Origin: Lachnospiraceae bacterium UBA1818
GTDB taxonomy: Bacteria > Bacillota > Clostridia > Lachnospirales > Lachnospiraceae
Assembly (NCBI GenBank): GCA_904419285.1
Contig: CAJFQZ010000031.1
Span: 1 to 39,431, forward strand
DNA length: 39,431 bases
Direction of reading: 5' to 3'
The first letter of the stretch is position 1. Each line of letters starts with the position of its first letter. The position numbers and the translations under genes are program-made. This document shows positions 1,433 to 32,953 of the stretch, in pieces. The notes beneath the pieces are model-generated. The model worked only from the letters and a program-made list of their open reading frames with translations. It had not been told where the DNA came from and searched no databases.

Positions 1433-3559
1433 TTACAGTTCTGTCCAGTCAAACGTGCTTAAGTCTATTGTCTCGTAGGATGAAAGGATATTATCAACCT
1501 CGGCTTTTGTGCTTGCAGCCCCGTCAACTGTGTACTCTCCCCAGTTTGATTCAACTGTCTGAAGCAATTCTATGGAACTATTCCCCATCTTATAGAATTC
1601 GTAAATGTGCGCATCTGCTCCTCCGCTTCCTGTCCTTTTTATAATCCCTCCGTTACATATTTCGACGATATTTCGGTATCCACCGGGAAGTACTAATTCA
1701 GGCTGGTTATCATGAAGCGCTAGTATATCTACGATATTGGGCTGCTCATTGCCCTCGTAGTCTGTATATGATTCAATTATGATCAATTCATCTGTACCGT
1801 TTTCATCAATATCAGACAGGGTATAATAGTACTTATTTCCAGAACCCCTCACAAAAAGGCCACTTTCATCTATATAAGATGTACCTGCTGGTGTATTCCA
1901 AATGCCTGACTCAGTCATGTTGATCGTCGAGTCATAAATAGCCCTGTTTCCGTTAAGTATATTGCTGTACTCATTGATTACAGTAGCGTATACAGAGCTG
2001 TCGAGGTTGGTGGCTTCTGTTTGCTCAGATGTGGTTCCGGGTAAATCTGAGTTGTTATCGCTTTGCAGGAACAGCCCCAGATCGTCTTTCCCGTATGCAG
2101 CATTAGTGTGCTCTTGAAATTCTTCAGTAAATGTATCTTGATCGACGGGCTCACCGTTTATGAGATACTCATATTCAAAGTTCAGCCCATCATCCGCGAT
2201 ACCTGTCATGTTTATGTCGAATGTATCTTCAGTTTCTTTAGTCCCATCGTATGAAACCCTTATGTATTCTTTATCCGTGCCGGCATCGCCTTGCAAAGTG
2301 GTCTCAACCCAGACTGCAGTTTCATCAGAATTATATGTAACATGGATTCCCATGCCGTCTGTATCTACAGAAGATCTTTCCTTGTATTCATCATATGTGA
2401 TACCGTAGTATTCCCAATCCTCTACGTATACGGAAGCCATTTCGATTGATGTGAGAAGCTGGGCAGCACCCTCACGGTAGGTATATAAACTAAATTCCTT
2501 ATCATTTGATAATATAGCCAGCTCATCAATTCCATCCTTATTGAGATCGATGAGGTGGCAATACTGCAGTAAGATGCTGCTACCGTTATCCATCCCCTGC
2601 AGAAGCGCTCTGTAAGCCTCCATGGCATTATCGTTAGTGTCCTGCTGCTCAGCTGTTTCAGTTACAGCATCTGGCTTTGTTTGATCTTTATCTCCTGAAT
2701 TTCCATTTAATCGGTATATCCCATATGCTGCGCCGCTGATAACGGCAACAAGCGTTATGCCGCTGATTATCTTTACTACTACGCCTTTCCCAGCAGCTCC
2801 GCCGGCCGCTTTCGCTGAAGCTGCCACTTTACCTGCTGTACTTCCTGCAGCAGATGAACCTGCAGATATGTTGGTTATATTTGCAAGCACTGCCGGATCC
2901 AGCTCCATTGCCATTGTATCCATTTTCTGTAAAAGGAAAAGGAAGAATCCAATTGGCGCAATCCCGTGCAGCTTGATATTTTCCCGTTTTTCAACTTGTT
3001 CAATTTTATTCTTTATACTCACTCTTCCATTATGGAGCCGCGTTTTAACAGTTGCTTCCGGGATTCCCAATGCCTGGGCAATCTCTTTTATGCTCATTTC
3101 CAGATAATAAAACATTGTCACAGTAGTCCGCTGACGGTCTGGTAATGAATCTAAGATTTCTTTAAAGATACGCGTTATTTCAGCATCATCCATCACTGCT
3201 TCGGGCTGATTGGATTTGTCCTGGTCTTCGGCTTCTTCAATGGGATTATTCTTTTCATCTGAATCCACAGAAAACAGCACCGGCTTTTTCTTTTTTAAGT
3301 AATCTAAGGTTACATTCCTTGCTATTGCCTTAACCCAGGCGCTATATTTAGACGGTTCCTTTAAATTTAGCAGGTTTTCCAGTGATTTGATGTACGTATC
3401 CTGGAGCAGGTCCATTACGGTATCTTCGTCTGACTTTATCATACATTTGATCGTCAGATACACCTGGCGATATGAATATCTGTAAAGTTCGGCAAATGCT
3501 CCCTGGTCCCCTTTCTGGGCAGCAATAACCCAGCCAGGATTAAATTCCTTTTTTTCCAT
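1433..3559 (-). CDS. ECF-type sigma factor fused to a membrane helix and extracytoplasmic domain
   Basis: The 708-aa product is far longer than a usual ECF sigma factor (about 160-200 aa). Residues about 15-95 match sigma region 2 (AFAELYRYSYRQVY, then LLQDTYIKSLENL and ARNVTLDYL). Residues about 135-190 match region 4 with its helix-turn-helix (LPDRQRTTVTMFYYLEMS, IKEIAQALGIPEATVKTRL). An Ala/Gly/Ser-rich linker leads to one membrane helix at about 261-285 (IISGITLVAVISGAAYGIY). The remaining roughly 420 residues should be outside the cell and hold two acidic loops of the DxNxDG type (DLNKDGIDEL near 340; DIDENGTDEL near 600), as in calcium-binding repeats of secreted proteins. The start is supported by AGGAGAG five bases upstream. 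Sigma activity and signal sensing would sit on one polypeptide. The lipoprotein gene follows in the same operon. Confidence 0.85.
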   Translation of the reverse strand: MEKKEFNPGWVIAAQKGDQGAFAELYRYSYRQVYLTIKCMIKSDEDTVMDLLQDTYIKSLENLLNLKEPSKYSAWVKAIARNVTLDYLKKKKPVLFSVDSDEKNNPIEEAEDQDKSNQPEAVMDDAEITRIFKEILDSLPDRQRTTVTMFYYLEMSIKEIAQALGIPEATVKTRLHNGRVSIKNKIEQVEKRENIKLHGIAPIGFFLFLLQKMDTMAMELDPAVLANITNISAGSSAAGSTAGKVAASAKAAGGAAGKGVVVKIISGITLVAVISGAAYGIYRLNGNSGDKDQTKPDAVTETAEQQDTNDNAMEAYRALLQGMDNGSSILLQYCHLIDLNKDGIDELAILSNDKEFSLYTYREGAAQLLTSIEMASVYVEDWEYYGITYDEYKERSSVDTDGMGIHVTYNSDETAVWVETTLQGDAGTDKEYIRVSYDGTKETEDTFDINMTGIADDGLNFEYEYLINGEPVDQDTFTEEFQEHTNAAYGKDDLGLFLQSDNNSDLPGTTSEQTEATNLDSSVYATVINEYSNILNGNRAIYDSTINMTESGIWNTPAGTSYIDESGLFVRGSGNKYYYTLSDIDENGTDELIIIESYTDYEGNEQPNIVDILALHDNQPELVLPGGYRNIVEICNGGIIKRTGSGGADAHIYEFYKMGNSSIELLQTVESNWGEYTVDGAASTKAEVDNILSSYETIDLSTFDWTEL

Positions 3560-4736
3560 TTTTTCTCTCCTGTGTGTAATAATAAATAGGTGTTAAATAA
3601 CTAAAATTGTATATTGTGATTTTTGTTTCTGTCTTATTGACGAATCAGATAACAGAAAGGTTCATTACAATTTGGGGAAAAATAAAAACATGGAAATCCG
3701 GAAAGACAAATAAAACTCCATCCGTGGTTATCCATGTTTCCCTCCCCTTTTATCCTTCTATTTATACTATACTGATTTTATCGGCTGTTTCAATAGAAAG
3801 CACGCAAGTTTAATCAACAAGTAAAAAAAACCGCGCAAAGCACTGTAACCTTATGAAGTCGCTACAGTAAAACCTTCATCTGTATTCCCAGTACATGCTC
3901 TGCTTACGTTCTTCAAGTTAATAAAATAGGGGAAAATTATACACTTTTTCCTTAAATTCAAAGATGTATTCATATTCAATTATTGGGATCTCGTAGTAAT
4001 TTTGTCACTTTCCAAAATTATATTAATGCTTTCAATCTCACGGATAAAACTATCATCATTTTTCTACAGGATGTGATTCAGGCAGGATTCTCCGAACAGG
4101 ATCTAGGAAAAGTAGTTCACCGAATCATACTCCTCGTTCATCAACAATACCGGCGACATTTAGTTTGTGGATGCAAGGAACAAAGGGGTAATATCCAACC
4201 TTACCACACGCATATTTTTATGGAACATAAAAAAGCGTGTAAATTTGAAGTAACAGAATGAGAAGCAGCAGTTTTAATATTAAGGGTATTATAGAGATAC
4301 AATGGGGAAGAATATAGCTGCCATAAAAGAGAATATTCAGATACAACTGAAAGGCGATTCAAAATATGCTCAAAGAACATCAGTACGGTACATGGGAACG
4401 TGCACAGGTGAGGCGGCGAAGAAACACAAAAAGTAATCATTTCGGAGAGATAGTAAGAAAATAAAACAAAACAACAAGCCCAGCTCAGAGGATGGCTCAG
4501 ACGCTCGGATATGATTATGCTTTAAGTGATTTTTTCTTTCAGCGTGCTATTCAATCGATTACTTAAAAAACTCGGTCCTACTTCGGTTTGTAAAGATTCC
4601 CTTAGAGCACATCCTCAAAAATTCGTTCAGGCGCAGAACTGCACATGACGCTAATGCAACTTTTTCCTCTTATTATAAGAGCTTAGAAGTGAGATTGAGA
4701 TGCTGTTTTGCCATTTTCCTACTATTTATCTGTCTA
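3560..4736. other. 1.2-kb AT-rich stretch without a convincing gene
   Basis: No intact recognisable gene is present. Several short open frames on the plus strand (for example 3983-4261, and shorter pieces to about 4570) are interrupted by stops, lack good ribosome binding sites and match no family I know. Base composition is AT-rich, unlike the core genes that begin at 4737. The likely reading is decayed DNA, possibly old mobile DNA, between an accessory operon and the conserved chromosome. The promoter of the sigma factor gene should lie at the left end of this stretch, but no clear -35/-10 pair stands out. Confidence 0.5.
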
Positions 4737-6160: not shown

Positions 6161-7855
6161 TTATTCAGCTTCTGCCTTCGCCTCTGGAAGGAGATGCAGT
6201 TTTTTACAGTATTTCAGAAGTCTGACACCCATCGGAAGATCCTTGATATCCTCTTCTGAAAGTGTCCCCAGCCGGAGGACCGCCACGATATACACTGCCA
6301 TAGCGACAAGAATAGACAGTACTGCCGGAATGAATCTTCCGCCGATCACCAGGGCAAGCAGAGAGTGCACTCCGAAGGTGACGATTCCCATGACCGCCGC
6401 GGCGATAAACGGTTTTACAAACGTATGTATGACGTCGATCCGGTATCCGCTGACTTTCCTGATCTTGATCTGGTTCAGGATACACATGCACAGGGAGAAG
6501 ACGATATTTCCTCCAACCAGCGCATAGACGTTCATGCGGAAGACCGTCATCATGATACAGAACGCTGCCAGATGTACGACGAGGGAGATGCCCGCGTTCT
6601 TTGCCGGCGCTGTCATACGGTTAAGGCCGTGCAGGATAGAGTTGGACACGGATGACAGTCCGTAAAGCACGACCACGATAGAACCCATCATGAGCAGCTG
6701 AGCCGGAGTGGCGCTGTCGTCGTTGTAAAGCAGCACCATGATCGGTGACGCCAGGACAAAGTAACCTACGCAGCTCGGGATCGCGATGAGCATGGTGAGA
6801 CGCAGCGTCTGGTTGATCTTATCGTTGACCTGCTGCTTCGTTCCATTTGCGACCGCGGCCGTCAGGCTCGGGACGACAGAGGCTCCGAGGGCATTCGCGA
6901 TCGCCATCGGAACATTGATCAGCGTGTCATATTTTCCGGTATAGATTCCCTGCAGGGCCATATACTCTTGTTCTACATACCCCTGGGAACTCATGATATG
7001 GTTAAATATCGTCAGGTCGATGATCTGATTGATATTATAGATCGCAGTGCTGAATACGATCGGGATCGCCGTGAAAAGAAGAGCTTTCAGAAGAGAAGAA
7101 TAACTCTCCACTCTTTTCGTCCTGTCATGCTTCAGCTGCCTGCGGATACCTCCGCGGTACAGCCAGAGAACGAACAGGACAAAAAGAAGGCCCGCAAGAG
7201 AACCCATGACAGTTCCAAGTGTGCTTCCTGCCGCTCCGTATGCCGGTCCCAGCAGCTCTTCTCCGGACGCCTCGCCAGCCCGCGTACCGATGCCGATCAG
7301 AACGCTGGCGCCCACAATGCTTACGACCGCATTCACGACCTGCTCAAGGATCTGGGAGATCGCAGTCGGGACCATGGTGCCAAGCCCCTGGAAATATCCG
7401 CGGATGACCGCCATCACTGCCACGATCAGCAGTCCCGGGGCCAGCACCCGGAGTGCATACACACTCAGAGGGGAACGCATCGCATAAGTGGAGATCGCGC
7501 CTGCCCCGAAAAAGATCGCCAGTGAGATCACCAGTCCCAGAGCCACTGCGAATGCCAGTGAACAGAGGAATACACGGAATGCGTTCCTTCTCTGCCGTAC
7601 AGCCATCCTCGCTGAGACAAGCTTGGAAACCGCGGTAGGGAGACTGAACGATGAGAGCATCAGCGCGATCGCGTAGACCTGATAGGCATAGCCGTAAAAT
7701 CCGTTTCCTTCATCGCCCAGTATATTGGTCAGCGGGATCCTGTACACGACGCCGATGATCTTTGTGAGGACCGCAGCCGCGGCCAGGATTGCTCCCTGCA
7801 CAATATAATCATCTTTTTTAGATCCCGTTTTTGTATTCTTAGGTGTTTCAGCCAT
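6161..7855 (-). CDS. SpoVB/MurJ-like polysaccharide flippase (MOP superfamily)
   Basis: The 564-aa polytopic protein has about 14 predicted membrane helices. It opens with a polar Lys/Thr-rich tail and a first helix with the family pattern GAILAAAAVLTKIIGVVYRI followed by PLTNILGDEGNGFYGYAYQV. Length and pattern match the SpoVB/YtgP/YkvU group of the MOP superfamily, which moves lipid-linked sugars across the membrane. Members act in spore cortex formation (SpoVB) or in vegetative peptidoglycan synthesis; sequence alone does not decide which. AAGGAGG sits upstream of the ATG. The BofC-like gene follows, which fits a sporulation link. Confidence 0.9.
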   Translation of the reverse strand: MAETPKNTKTGSKKDDYIVQGAILAAAAVLTKIIGVVYRIPLTNILGDEGNGFYGYAYQVYAIALMLSSFSLPTAVSKLVSARMAVRQRRNAFRVFLCSLAFAVALGLVISLAIFFGAGAISTYAMRSPLSVYALRVLAPGLLIVAVMAVIRGYFQGLGTMVPTAISQILEQVVNAVVSIVGASVLIGIGTRAGEASGEELLGPAYGAAGSTLGTVMGSLAGLLFVLFVLWLYRGGIRRQLKHDRTKRVESYSSLLKALLFTAIPIVFSTAIYNINQIIDLTIFNHIMSSQGYVEQEYMALQGIYTGKYDTLINVPMAIANALGASVVPSLTAAVANGTKQQVNDKINQTLRLTMLIAIPSCVGYFVLASPIMVLLYNDDSATPAQLLMMGSIVVVLYGLSSVSNSILHGLNRMTAPAKNAGISLVVHLAAFCIMMTVFRMNVYALVGGNIVFSLCMCILNQIKIRKVSGYRIDVIHTFVKPFIAAAVMGIVTFGVHSLLALVIGGRFIPAVLSILVAMAVYIVAVLRLGTLSEEDIKDLPMGVRLLKYCKKLHLLPEAKAEAE

Positions 7856-10958: not shown

Positions 10959-12263
10959 TTAGTAAATGATCTCTTTGATCAGAGGAGAAACCGGCGGTTT
11001 GCGGTCCGTGAATTCGTAGGCTGCCAGGAGCCTTTTCTTTGCTTCTGAGAGCTTCTCCGGGTCAGAGGCGTGGATGACGGCTAGAGGATCCCCCTTCTTT
11101 ACCTTGTCGCCTTTCTTTCTGCAGAGCACAAGCCCGACGCTTAAGTCGATGGAGCTCTCCTTCGTCTCTCTTCCGCCTCCCAAGAACAGGCAGATCCTGC
11201 CGATCTCTTCCGTGCGGATATCCCTTACGAAGCCGTCCGTCTCTGCGCAGACCGTCTCCTGATATGCCGCAGAAGGCAGACGCTCCGGATGTTCTGCCTC
11301 TTCCGGATCACCGCCCTGTGCTTTGATAAAGGACTTGAATACTTCAAACGCGCGCCCGGTATCAAGCGCTTCTTTAAGAAGACGCTCTGCTTCTTCCATG
11401 CTTCCGGCTCTTCCCGCCTTGACTGTCATCAGCGATCCGAGGACAAGGACCAGTTCCTCCAGGTCCTTCGGTCCATGTCCCTTCAGCGTACTGACTGCCT
11501 CCTTTACCTCCAGGGCGTTCCCTACGGCAAAGCCGAGAGGCTGATCCATATCAGAGATCACGGCGGAGACGTCCTTCCCCGCAAGCTTTCCGATACTGAC
11601 CATTTCCCTGGCGAGAGCTCGTGCATCCTCAAGGGATTTCATGAATGCTCCGTCGCCGGTCTTGACATCCAGCACAATGCCGTCGGCGCCGGACGCCAGC
11701 TTCTTGCTCATGATGCTGGAGGCGATAAGAGACATCTGATCCACAGTGCCCGTCACATCTCTGAGTGCATACAGCTTTTTATCCGCCGGGGCAAGATTTG
11801 CAGTCTGTCCTGCGATCGCAATATGGATCGTATTGACATTCCGGATGAACTGCTCCGGGGTCAGGTCCGTGTGAAAACCTGTGAAGCTCTCCAGCTTATC
11901 GATCGTTCCGCCGGTGTGCCCCAGCCCTCTTCCCGACATTTTTGCCACAGGGACGCCGAGAGATGCAACAAGCGGGGCAAGTACAAGAGACGTCTTGTCC
12001 CCGACTCCGCCGGTGCTGTGCTTATCCACCTTGATTCCATGGATCGCGGAGAGATCTAGTACGTCTCCGCTGTGAGCCATGGCAAGAGTAAGATCCTTCG
12101 TCTCTTCGTCTGTCATTCCGACAAAGCAGACTGCCATCATCATAGCGGACATCTGGTAGTCCGGTATTCTTCCGTCAGTGTACTCCCGGATCATCCAGTC
12201 GATCTCGTCCTTCGCAAGCGCTCCTCCCCGTTTCTTCTTCACGATAAGATCATACATGTTCAT
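10959..12263 (-). CDS. pdp: pyrimidine-nucleoside phosphorylase
   Basis: The 434-aa product is a thymidine/pyrimidine phosphorylase: N-terminal alpha domain (MYDLIVKKKRGGALAKDEI), phosphate-site signature KVDKHSTGGVGDKTS at about 80-95, GRGLGHTGGTIDKLES, and a C-terminal domain with the biotinyl-like turn GDPLAVIHA. It cleaves uridine, thymidine or deoxyuridine with phosphate to base plus (deoxy)ribose-1-phosphate, for salvage and pentose use. Length agrees with Pdp of Bacillus and clostridia. The ATG at 12263 has AAGGAGG eight bases upstream, so a longer in-frame version to 12287 is unlikely. A terminator follows at 10888-10932. Confidence 0.95.
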   Translation of the reverse strand: MNMYDLIVKKKRGGALAKDEIDWMIREYTDGRIPDYQMSAMMMAVCFVGMTDEETKDLTLAMAHSGDVLDLSAIHGIKVDKHSTGGVGDKTSLVLAPLVASLGVPVAKMSGRGLGHTGGTIDKLESFTGFHTDLTPEQFIRNVNTIHIAIAGQTANLAPADKKLYALRDVTGTVDQMSLIASSIMSKKLASGADGIVLDVKTGDGAFMKSLEDARALAREMVSIGKLAGKDVSAVISDMDQPLGFAVGNALEVKEAVSTLKGHGPKDLEELVLVLGSLMTVKAGRAGSMEEAERLLKEALDTGRAFEVFKSFIKAQGGDPEEAEHPERLPSAAYQETVCAETDGFVRDIRTEEIGRICLFLGGGRETKESSIDLSVGLVLCRKKGDKVKKGDPLAVIHASDPEKLSEAKKRLLAAYEFTDRKPPVSPLIKEIIY

Positions 12264-27876: not shown

Positions 27877-28332
27877 TTACATTCCTTTGTATTCATCTAA
27901 AAGGTATTTCCTGTTCAATATATCATAAATTTCTATAAAAGGCACAGAATCCATATAAATCCACCGTTCTATATATGTTGGAGTTATCTCAAACAGAACT
28001 TCATTTTCCAGAAGTGAATACCTTTTATATGAGTCAGGAAAACATTTCTGAAATTTTTCAAGGAATTCATTATTTTCTAACGGGCAGCCGATTTCTTTGC
28101 ATCGCCCTTCAATCTGGATATTCTCGATACAAAGTGAAACATTCGGATTAAGTGAAAGCTGTCTGTATTTTCGGAATGTTCTGTCCGTCTGAAAATAAAA
28201 CCGCCCGTCTATTTGTATCACACTCATCATCCTTGACGATACCATATTGTTCTCGGCTGTGGACAGGACCATTTTCTTTGATGTTCCGAATTGATTAATT
28301 AATTCACTGTATTTTTCGTTGAATAAACTCAC
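27877..28332 (-). CDS. pyridoxamine 5'-phosphate oxidase-family protein
   Basis: The protein of about 151 aa has the split-barrel flavin-binding pattern: MVLSTAENNMVSSRMMSVIQ, GRFYFQTDRTFRKYRQLSLN and NVSLCIENIQIEGRCKEIG, with a C-terminal segment ending in a tyrosine-rich tail. Members bind FMN or F420-like cofactors and reduce or bind small molecules; no substrate is predictable. Two GTG starts are possible (28347 and 28332); 28332 is chosen because GAGG lies nine bases upstream. It follows the zinc alcohol dehydrogenase gene closely on the same strand. Confidence 0.85.
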   Translation of the reverse strand: MSLFNEKYSELINQFGTSKKMVLSTAENNMVSSRMMSVIQIDGRFYFQTDRTFRKYRQLSLNPNVSLCIENIQIEGRCKEIGCPLENNEFLEKFQKCFPDSYKRYSLLENEVLFEITPTYIERWIYMDSVPFIEIYDILNRKYLLDEYKGM

Positions 28333-28360
28333 AGGGATTATCCTCACTTTCTAAAACAGA

Positions 28361-31277: not shown

Positions 31278-31432
31278 ATTCTTCTCCCCCTTATGCATGT
31301 ATAACCGCAGAACATACTGAAAGAACATAATAATTGATTTTCGACAAAGTTATTCTATTTTTTCTCTATTATAGCATCCGTACATTCCCCTGTCAGTTGC
31401 TTTCTTGAATATTCTGAGGTTTCAAATCGTTA

Positions 31433-31453
31433 TTCCGAAAAATTTCCGAAAAC
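31433..31453 (+). repeat. two 9-base direct repeats with 11-bp period upstream of the riboflavin operon
   Basis: TTCCGAAAA occurs at 31433-31441 and again at 31444-31452, start to start exactly 11 bp. The pair lies about 12 bases upstream of the -35 of the ribU promoter. OmpR/PhoB-type winged-helix proteins bind such tandem, same-face repeats; the second gene of this operon encodes a protein with that domain. Binding is inference. Confidence 0.5.
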
Positions 31454-31464
31454 ATCACGGATCA

Positions 31465-31494
31465 TTGCCTGTCTGAACAATCTGATGATATAAT
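31465..31494 (+). promoter_or_regulatory. promoter of the riboflavin uptake operon
   Basis: TTGCCT (31465-31470) and TATAAT (31489-31494) are 18 bases apart. Initiation near 31501 gives a leader of about 100 bases before the ribU ATG. Confidence 0.6.
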
Positions 31495-31499
31495 CAATC

Positions 31500-31580
31500 A
31501 GACAATAAAATAGAAGTGTCTTCGCAGTATTCTCTGCTGCTTACAGCACCTGAAAGGCATTTCTTTTTAGGTGCTGTTTT
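31500..31580 (+). promoter_or_regulatory. leader with alternative hairpins and terminator (attenuator candidate)
   Basis: The leader can form AGACA/TGTCT (31500-31521), GCAG/CTGC (31524-31537), TGCTG-CTTA-CAGCA (31535-31548) and a terminator-like stem ACAGCACCT / AGGTGCTGT (arms 31543-31551 and 31569-31577) followed by TTTT. The third hairpin uses the left arm of the terminator and the last bases of the second hairpin, so only alternate folds are possible, as in transcription attenuators. The sequence does not match the FMN riboswitch. The ligand or factor is unknown. Confidence 0.5.
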
Positions 31581-31600
31581 ATGTCATGGAGGGATTTAAT

Positions 31601-32245
31601 ATGAACGGCAAGACAAAAAAACTCACAACGATTGCTATGCTCTGTGCTATTACTTACGTTGTAATGGCCGTTGGAAGAATACCTGTTGTTCTATTTATGA
31701 AATATGATCCGTCAGATGTCATTGTCGCTCTGAGCGGATTTATCTGGGGACCGACAACTTCCTGTATCGTATCAGTTGCCGTAGCGGTAATTGAAATGAT
31801 TACAGTCAGTGAAACAGGAATTTGGGGCTGCATTATGAATATTATACAGACGCTCTCATTTGCATGTACTGCAGCTGTGATTTATAAGAAAAAGCACACC
31901 TTGGCTGGCGCAGTCAGTGGTCTGGCAGCAGGGTGGATCATAGCCACAGCTGTTATGCTGCTGTGGAATTATCTTGTGACTCCCATTTATATGGGATATC
32001 CGCGAGAGGCTGTTGCCGAAATGTTAGTTCCGGTTTTTCTTCCATTCAATTTGTTAAAGGGCGGATTAAACGCGGCTTTTACATTTTTACTTTATAAACC
32101 TGTAGTTACTGCATTAAGAAAGAGCGGTTATGTTTCCACGGTGGAGAATGGAACCAGACGCAGGCACACAGGGCTTATCCTGCTGGCACTGTTGATCATT
32201 ATTACCTGCATACTTTTTCTTTTGTCAATGAATGGGATAATTTGA
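31601..32245 (+). CDS. ribU: RibU-like riboflavin ECF transporter S component
   Basis: The 214-aa protein has about six membrane helices and the S-component pattern of the RibU group: a basic start, LTTIAMLCAITYVVMAVGRI, then the substrate-site motif FMKYDPSDVIVALSGFIWGP, and near the end FNLLKGGLNAAFTFLLYKPV. RibU binds riboflavin and hands it to the shared ECF energising module (EcfA, EcfA', EcfT), which is not in this window. The start at 31601 has GGAGGG seven bases upstream. It is followed nine bases later by the kinase-regulator fusion, which supports flavin as the substrate. Confidence 0.8.
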   Translation: MNGKTKKLTTIAMLCAITYVVMAVGRIPVVLFMKYDPSDVIVALSGFIWGPTTSCIVSVAVAVIEMITVSETGIWGCIMNIIQTLSFACTAAVIYKKKHTLAGAVSGLAAGWIIATAVMLLWNYLVTPIYMGYPREAVAEMLVPVFLPFNLLKGGLNAAFTFLLYKPVVTALRKSGYVSTVENGTRRRHTGLILLALLIIITCILFLLSMNGII

Positions 32246-32254
32246 GGATTGAAA

Positions 32255-32953
32255 ATGGGTACAACCGACAAAATAAGGACAATTTATACAACAATGACAG
32301 GATCCGTCATATATGGCCGCGGTATTGGAAAACACGTAGGAACGCCTACCGCAGATCTTAGGGTTAAAGATCAGACAAAGCTGCCGGAAATAGGTGTATA
32401 CACTTCGAAGATCATTTTATGCGATTATATTTTTTATGGCGTAACACACATAGGTATGCGCCCTACGCTTGATACTGATAAAAGAATTTCTATAGAGACG
32501 CATATATTAAATTTTGATAAGGAGATTTACGGATGTACTATTACAATAGAACTGTATCAAAAGATCAGGAACATTATAAAGTTCGAAAATCTCTCCCTGC
32601 TTCTGGAACAGATCAAAGATGACTGCCAGACTGCACAGAAATACTGGGGAATAAATAATCCGCCTGCTCAACTGTTAATGAATAAAGGAACTCACCGTGT
32701 TACACTCGATGGACAGGATATATATTTAACGGTTAAGGAATTCGACGTTCTGTATTTGCTTTATTCAAACCCGTCAGTTTCCTTTACGAAAGAACAAATC
32801 TATAGAGCTGTGTGGAATGAACTGCCTGTGGGCAGATGCCATGCTGTAGAAAATACAGTATTTCAGATCAGAAAAAAGATCAAGTCCGTTCTTCATAGTC
32901 AGGATTATATTAAAACGATCGCAGGATACGGATACAAATTCAACTCCTGGTAA
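32255..32953 (+). CDS. riboflavin kinase domain fused to OmpR-type winged-helix DNA-binding domain
   Basis: The 232-aa protein has two domains. Residues about 14-131 match the riboflavin kinase (flavokinase) fold: GSVIYGRGIGKHVGTPTAD (metal/ATP loop), LPEIGVYTSK, HIGMRPTLDTDKRISIETHI with the expected catalytic Glu at 81, IYGCTITIEL, and KIRNIIKFENLSLLLEQI. The normal PTAN motif reads PTAD (Asp34). There is no FAD synthetase domain. Residues about 147-230 match the trans_reg_C winged helix: LTVKEFDVLYLLYSNPSVSF, KEQIYRAVWNE, VENTVFQIRKKI and IAGYGYKF. ATG 32255 has GAGG seven bases upstream. The gene follows ribU by nine bases. A flavin-binding transcription factor for the operon is the natural reading. 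It recalls RibR of Bacillus (kinase plus RNA-binding domain) and archaeal RbkR (DNA-binding plus CTP-dependent kinase), but with a different domain combination. Confidence 0.9.
   Translation: MGTTDKIRTIYTTMTGSVIYGRGIGKHVGTPTADLRVKDQTKLPEIGVYTSKIILCDYIFYGVTHIGMRPTLDTDKRISIETHILNFDKEIYGCTITIELYQKIRNIIKFENLSLLLEQIKDDCQTAQKYWGINNPPAQLLMNKGTHRVTLDGQDIYLTVKEFDVLYLLYSNPSVSFTKEQIYRAVWNELPVGRCHAVENTVFQIRKKIKSVLHSQDYIKTIAGYGYKFNSW

Follow-up and report, generated by a model that had tools for sequence, protein, structure and literature searches.

A riboflavin kinase fused to a PhoB-like winged helix, encoded after ribU behind a conserved direct repeat, suggests a flavin-sensing gene switch in gut Clostridia

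How might a riboflavin importer be kept under flavin control where no recognisable FMN riboswitch precedes its gene? In Firmicutes the flavin control of ribU is usually ascribed to such riboswitches (see, for example, the accessible part of PMC12934955). The question arises from a stretch of 39,431 nucleotides of Lachnospiraceae bacterium UBA1818 (contig CAJFQZ010000031.1), which we call the window, and in which a sequence-only reading had noticed a ribU-like gene followed by a fusion of a riboflavin kinase and a winged helix. It had proposed that the kinase domain binds riboflavin or FMN, and that the winged helix controls ribU in place of the riboswitch. We think that the comparison of this locus with its relatives suggests an enzyme turned into a gene switch that senses vitamin B2, from the presence of a matching site at its own promoter in dozens of them. 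The features on which the argument is built are collected in Table 1.

Table 1. Features of the ribU-fusion locus, with positions counted in the window
Feature	Position	Strand	Basis
Candidate operator: TTCCGAA (31433-31439), AAAT, TTCCGAA (31444-31450); direct repeat, 11-bp period	31433..31450	+	
Predicted sigma-70 promoter: -35 TTGCCT (31465-31470), -10 TATAAT (31489-31494), 18-nt spacer	31465..31494	+	
Leader, apparent FMN-riboswitch leader remnant: both flanks present, aptamer missing	31501..31600	+	alignment with the leaders of loci L042-L044
Hairpin resembling an intrinsic terminator, apparently a leftover of the riboswitch expression platform	31543..31577	+	alignment, fold
ribU-type ECF S component, 214 aa (ATG 31601, stop 32243-32245)	31601..32245	+	frame, Pfam, profile against solved RibU
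Riboflavin kinase-winged helix fusion protein, 232 aa (ATG 32255, stop 32951-32953)	32255..32953	+	frame, Pfam, AlphaFold2, Foldseek
Flavokinase domain, residues 12-130; PTAD instead of PTAN, catalytic Glu81 kept	32288..32644	+	Pfam, alignment
OmpR/PhoB-type winged helix, residues 153-229; recognition helix HAVENTVFQIR	32711..32941	+	Pfam, alignment, Foldseek

The two genes are as the sequence-only reading had described them, a RibU-like S component and, nine bases later (GGATTGAAA), a single frame joining kinase and winged helix; frames, Pfam and the RibU profile all confirm this. An RBS-like GGAGGG at 31588 precedes the ATG of the S component, and the longer frame starting at GTG 31571 is less likely. 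The protein matches ECF_trnsprt in Pfam (E 3.7e-17), and a profile made from it and seven relatives (8 sequences) retrieved three chains from the PDB (5kbw, E 1.3e-20; 5kc0, 2.1e-20; 3p5n, 2e-17) and no other at E up to 0.1. By its full-domain similarity to solved RibU the S component is of the RibU type, and riboflavin transport is its predicted function. Near the operon, on the opposite strand (27877-28347), a pyridoxamine-phosphate-oxidase-like protein is encoded; a gene of this kind tracked ribU expression in C. scindens, according to the portion of PMC12934955 that is accessible.

In the fusion protein, Pfam recognises Flavokinase (PF01687; E 8e-33, 113.8 bits against a cut-off of 19.6) and, in the same frame, Trans_reg_C (PF00486; E 1.4e-17, 63.9 bits against 26.2); the sequence-only reading had put the two domains at about residues 14-131 and 147-230. 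Pfam gave these two domains only, with no receiver domain bearing a phospho-acceptor Asp, and by domain content the protein is not a two-component response regulator. Its AlphaFold2 model (mean pLDDT 86) is weak at residues 1-10 and 21-30, and the pTM of 0.60 leaves the relative placement of the two domains unfixed; Foldseek matched the model to riboflavin kinases and to CovR/PhoB-type DNA-binding domains, including the PhoB-DNA complex 1gxp. A fusion created from two genes by a sequencing error is ruled out by 34 relatives that align across both domains (38-60% identical), so that the claim of a single gene stands. The further claim, that no studied protein is known to combine a flavokinase with a winged helix, agrees with what we found in the open-licence literature, whose accessible portions held no published account of such a fusion; it is not mentioned in the main text, as far as accessible, of PMC4418817, PMC7478625, PMC6593275, PMC12542839 or PMC5428420.

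How widespread is this arrangement, and does it keep company with flavin genes? A protein scan of named genomes kept at least 80 loci, at least 47 of them fusion-like (L043-L089). Among the matches listed, the carriers are mostly Lachnospiraceae, and further ones are Faecalibacterium, Pseudoflavonifractor, Flavonifractor plautii, Angelakisella, Sedimentibacter and an Erysipelotrichia bin. A match was found in 228 plasmid records, of which one among the matches listed, from Subdoligranulum variabile (L042), reached at least 80% coverage; around its fusion copy lie further short OmpR-type winged-helix proteins (3308-3820, 6825-7259 and 11218-11652). The 51 loci that we examined are the window, 48 found by protein (the 47 and the plasmid record) and two family genomes, L159 and L160, found through the repeat discussed below (the box); the other 49 were found without the box. 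RibU is encoded upstream of the fusion in 46 of the 51 (43 of the 48 found by protein, with the window, L159 and L160), as a fragment in L064 and in shortened form in L071. Three loci (L053, L057 and L059) have the box and the fusion, followed by ribD, in place of an upstream ribU; ribE is identified in L053, ribBA and ribH in L059, and L057 and L059 are almost identical. The remaining two, L078 and L087, have neither ribU nor box. The expected link between homologues and flavin genes is supported on comparative grounds, by uptake upstream or by riboflavin synthesis downstream. Within the genus, 7 of 58 genomes (the own one counted) carry the full or nearly full fusion, with ribU directly upstream in each; in the same-genus genome G028 the fusion frame is broken in the wing.

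A stand-alone protein of 114 residues, whose winged helix is 66% identical to that of the fusion, is encoded at 4893-5237 in L090-L093; the same length and identity are found in Ruminococcus faecis, Eubacterium ramulus, Blautia glucerasea and a Lachnospiraceae bin. The exact box is absent from G009, the one genome with this stand-alone protein that was searched.

If the winged helix controls ribU, a site for it should be conserved at the promoter, and the sequence-only reading had named 31420-31500 as the region to examine for binding. Alignment of the promoters yielded TTCCGAA-N4-TTCCGAA, a candidate operator inside that interval, whose first base in the window is also the first base of the finding as originally delimited. 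The exact box stands upstream of the operon in 44 of the 51 loci (42 of 49 without L159 and L160, which were found through it). At 16 other spacings (periods 8-10 and 12-24) the TTCCGAA pair was found in 0 of the 51 loci, and both strands of the 493 kb of loci contain no further box of period 11 and a single stray pair at period 24. The position relative to the promoter is equally regular: the TTG of the -35 lies 14 nt past the box in 44/44 exact-box loci, and the best -10 is at a 17-nt spacer in 41 of them (18 nt in the window), while the 14-nt linker and the promoter spacer have diverged in sequence. In L047, L049 and L056 a third, weaker repeat extends toward the -35. The loci with no exact box are L045 (where the contig begins inside the riboswitch), L064 and L071 (both rearranged), L078, L087 and two with near-boxes, L082 having CTCCGAA in both halves and L086 a different final base. 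The 51 loci share ancestry, and their boxes are not independent observations; with this in mind, the conservation of the box and its constant distance from the promoter support the proposed control of ribU by the winged helix on comparative grounds. Another candidate operator, the inverted repeat TGTCTGA...TCAGACA (about 31470-31505), was rejected, since inspection by eye did not show it conserved in relatives.

We then have to consider whether the box belongs to this operon or to a larger regulon. In its own genome of 2.77 Mb the exact box has no second copy; one mismatch brings two further box-like sites, both within open frames, and two mismatches raise the total to 46, against 19 in the reversed control. 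In the genus there are 17 exact boxes in 13 of the 58 genomes (reversed control, 1), nine at promoters of the ribU-fusion locus (the fusion is present in 7 of these loci and 2 are decayed) and eight in open frames of other genes. Two same-genus loci, L140 and L142, are decayed ribU-fusion copies with the exact box retained. When 397 family genomes were scanned for the box together with the promoter, 11 matches were obtained (reversed control, 0), all of which precede ribU and the fusion, namely the window and ten others, eight already known from the protein scan and two new. In the relatives' own genomes (42 of the 47 named-genome loci, the other five lying in genus genomes scanned separately), exactly one box-TTG site was found in 35 of 42 and two in none, with 0 in the control; the seven genomes without such a site are those of the seven loci without an exact box. 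In a class sample of 391 genomes the box-promoter scan matched the window alone, so that outside the family either the unit is uncommon or its promoter varies; members outside Lachnospiraceae came from the protein searches. A single box-promoter per genome fits, on this comparative evidence, a regulator that has its own operon as one clear target. Since many OmpR-type winged helices are encoded in these genomes, one could suppose that another response regulator binds the box and that the fused winged helix acts elsewhere. However, the box-promoter occurs solely before the ribU-fusion operon in the scanned genomes, it accompanies the fusion gene to ribD genes, and in genus genomes that lack the fusion every exact box lies within another gene or at a decayed ribU-fusion locus; we regard this supposition as highly improbable.

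The relation to the riboswitch proved to be less simple than first proposed. No FMN riboswitch (RF00050) was found in the window at the Rfam gathering score. For 31330-31650 the Rfam search was relaxed to E up to 10; it returned three sub-threshold, chance-looking matches and no FMN riboswitch, so that a concealed riboswitch, or an RNA of another known family, was dismissed for this interval. The window leader (fold z -5.3) aligns at both ends, terminator included, with the riboswitch leaders of L042, L043 and L044, and to judge from this alignment it looks like a leader that lost its aptamer; the leftover hairpin may still damp transcription into ribU. In L159 about half an aptamer is left, under the Rfam score. 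An FMN riboswitch at the gathering score precedes the operon in 26 of the 51 loci, and in 24 it occurs together with the exact box, behind box and promoter, so that double control by box and riboswitch appears to be common among the loci. On a tree of 49 fusion proteins (without L071 and L086, and with a possible long-branch pair, L084 and L088) the presence or absence of the riboswitch changes ten times, at least five of the changes being forced by well-supported branches, which indicates a riboswitch that turns over repeatedly beside a persistent box. The idea that the protein replaces the riboswitch is therefore tenable locally, for the window, and finds no support as a general rule.

From the computed evidence (the fusion, its gene linkage, a box conserved at a constant distance from the promoter and present with it once per genome, and the riboswitch-like remnant) we infer the binding of the box by the fusion protein, the ligand, activation rather than repression, and the active ligand state. 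We consider it probable that the fusion is a one-component autoregulatory flavin sensor, whose winged helix would act on the box of its own operon, most likely as an activator. The bacterial-type riboflavin kinase domain would bind riboflavin or FMN (and ATP or ADP), and the PhoB-like winged helix, as a dimer or tandem pair, would occupy both TTCCGAA repeats. Their centre lies about 59 bp above the likely transcription start (expected near 31501), from where transcription would most likely be activated. Without flavin the protein would most likely hold the box and turn on its target, which is usually ribU and in a few species riboflavin synthesis; once flavin binds, the protein would leave the box. 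An FMN riboswitch, where present downstream, would serve as a second, post-initiation brake. In the window's species, with the aptamer missing, the protein would be the only recognisable flavin control of the ribU-fusion operon.

A box upstream of the -35 suits an activator of the PhoB/OmpR class, for which this is the usual position; a site there could serve repression as well. Activation at scarce flavin is favoured because the box and the fusion stand before biosynthesis genes in three loci. It may be asked whether the sensor activates instead with riboflavin bound (substrate induction, a positive feedback on uptake), the riboswitch, where present, stopping an excess of FMN. The activator-like position of the box is compatible with this, and in the 24 loci where they coexist box and riboswitch could read opposite signals. 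However, the riboflavin-synthesis genes of three species (L053, L057, L059) stand behind box and fusion in loci without any Rfam riboswitch, and there induction by the product would lead to a runaway; moreover, the aptamer is missing in the window. We therefore think substrate induction rather unlikely, and prefer a sensor that is active when free of flavin.

Is the kinase domain still an enzyme? The Asn of PTAN is present in 46 of 50 fusion sequences and the catalytic Glu in 48 of 50 (L086 being left out of the residue counts). PTAN is replaced by PTAD in the window, L079 and L084 and by PAAG in L088 (Flavonifractor plautii), and the Glu by Lys in L084 and Gly in L089. In CaFADS, the FADS of C. 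ammoniagenes, no FMN was produced once T208, N210 or E268 had been changed to Ala or Asp, E268D leaving traces of FAD, according to the accessible part of PMC2573891. The window protein is a flavokinase by sequence, and its kinase activity is doubtful; because it has PTAD, and replacement of that site prevented FMN production in the studied enzyme, its kinase may be mainly a sensor. One might still argue that the fusion is first of all a working riboflavin kinase, trapping imported riboflavin as FMN, with a winged helix that autoregulates on another signal or on none. The largely intact PTAN and Glu agree with this, as does the place of the kinase gene directly after the importer gene. Against it, the own genome contains another flavokinase frame, as long as a RibF (350 aa), the window has PTAD, and L079, L084, L088 and L089 retain winged helix and exact box despite their altered kinase residues. 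We judge a primarily enzymatic role distinctly unlikely.

A sensor in which the winged helix matters most would agree with the pattern of conservation. Residues E199, N200, T201 and R206 of the recognition helix are invariant in 50/50, and mean pairwise identity is 84% in the recognition helix, 62% in the winged helix and 53% in the kinase (48 sequences, without L071, L086 and L043). We read this as a sign that selection acts on the DNA-binding switch and that catalysis by the kinase domain is sometimes dispensable. Two loci are worn: in L088 (4974-5654) the kinase domain is strongly worn, with winged helix, box and riboswitch conserved, and in L043 (5001-5747, Clostridium sp. Marseille-P3244) the wing frame is broken, with box and riboswitch intact.

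As for the flavin supply, lumazine synthase had no match in the own genome (94% complete; the control was found in 14/14 genomes), so the species probably must import riboflavin. The genome also has two EcfT/CbiQ (PF02361) matches, as expected of a genome with an ECF energising module, and a second RibU-like S component with an FMN riboswitch in front, so that the ribU-fusion operon is probably not the sole uptake route.

More generally, we lean slightly towards a scenario in which an enzyme domain was captured as the input of a PhoB-like one-component activator, giving a flavin switch of patchy distribution in gut Clostridia that has a single target, uptake or synthesis genes, and is often in series with an FMN riboswitch; the aptamer would have been dropped and the protein kept in lineages including that of the window, and the kinase would be non-catalytic in some. 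If true, this would set beside the riboswitch a second control, by a DNA-binding flavokinase whose candidate operator is defined to 18 bp; it would go some way to explaining how a species that is probably auxotrophic for riboflavin manages without a riboswitch at its ribU-fusion operon, and would add a flavin-responsive promoter part. The loci form a natural series, from box with riboswitch through half an aptamer to a missing one, and along it control by RNA may give way to control by protein.

It remains to place this protein among known systems. RbkR, reportedly described by Rodionova et al. in 2017 as an archaeal riboflavin kinase and regulator whose DNA-binding domain controls riboflavin genes, has its HTH at the N-terminus, joined to an archaeal kinase that depends on CTP. 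The fusion would resemble it in combining a riboflavin kinase with a DNA-binding domain, the enzyme serving as sensor, and differs in having an N-terminal bacterial flavokinase (PF01687) and a C-terminal PhoB-like winged helix. With the OmpR/PhoB response regulators, whose sites are usually 11-bp direct repeats, it shares the DNA-binding domain (Trans_reg_C), whereas a flavokinase domain stands where the receiver domain would be. RibR of Bacillus subtilis, a monofunctional flavokinase that binds RNA and acts on the FMN riboswitch (according to the accessible part of PMC12542839), is likewise a flavokinase with a regulatory part directed at riboflavin genes; in the fusion, however, the flavokinase is joined to a winged helix of a DNA-binding type, and the site proposed for it is a DNA repeat upstream of the promoter. 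Finally, in C. scindens two ribU genes rise at low riboflavin, each with an FMN riboswitch upstream (PMC12934955, in its accessible part). Our loci resemble such riboswitch-controlled ribU genes of Firmicutes in the type of transporter and, in 26 of 51 cases, in the riboswitch too; they differ from them in the window by the missing aptamer, and by an extra candidate layer of control by protein and DNA.
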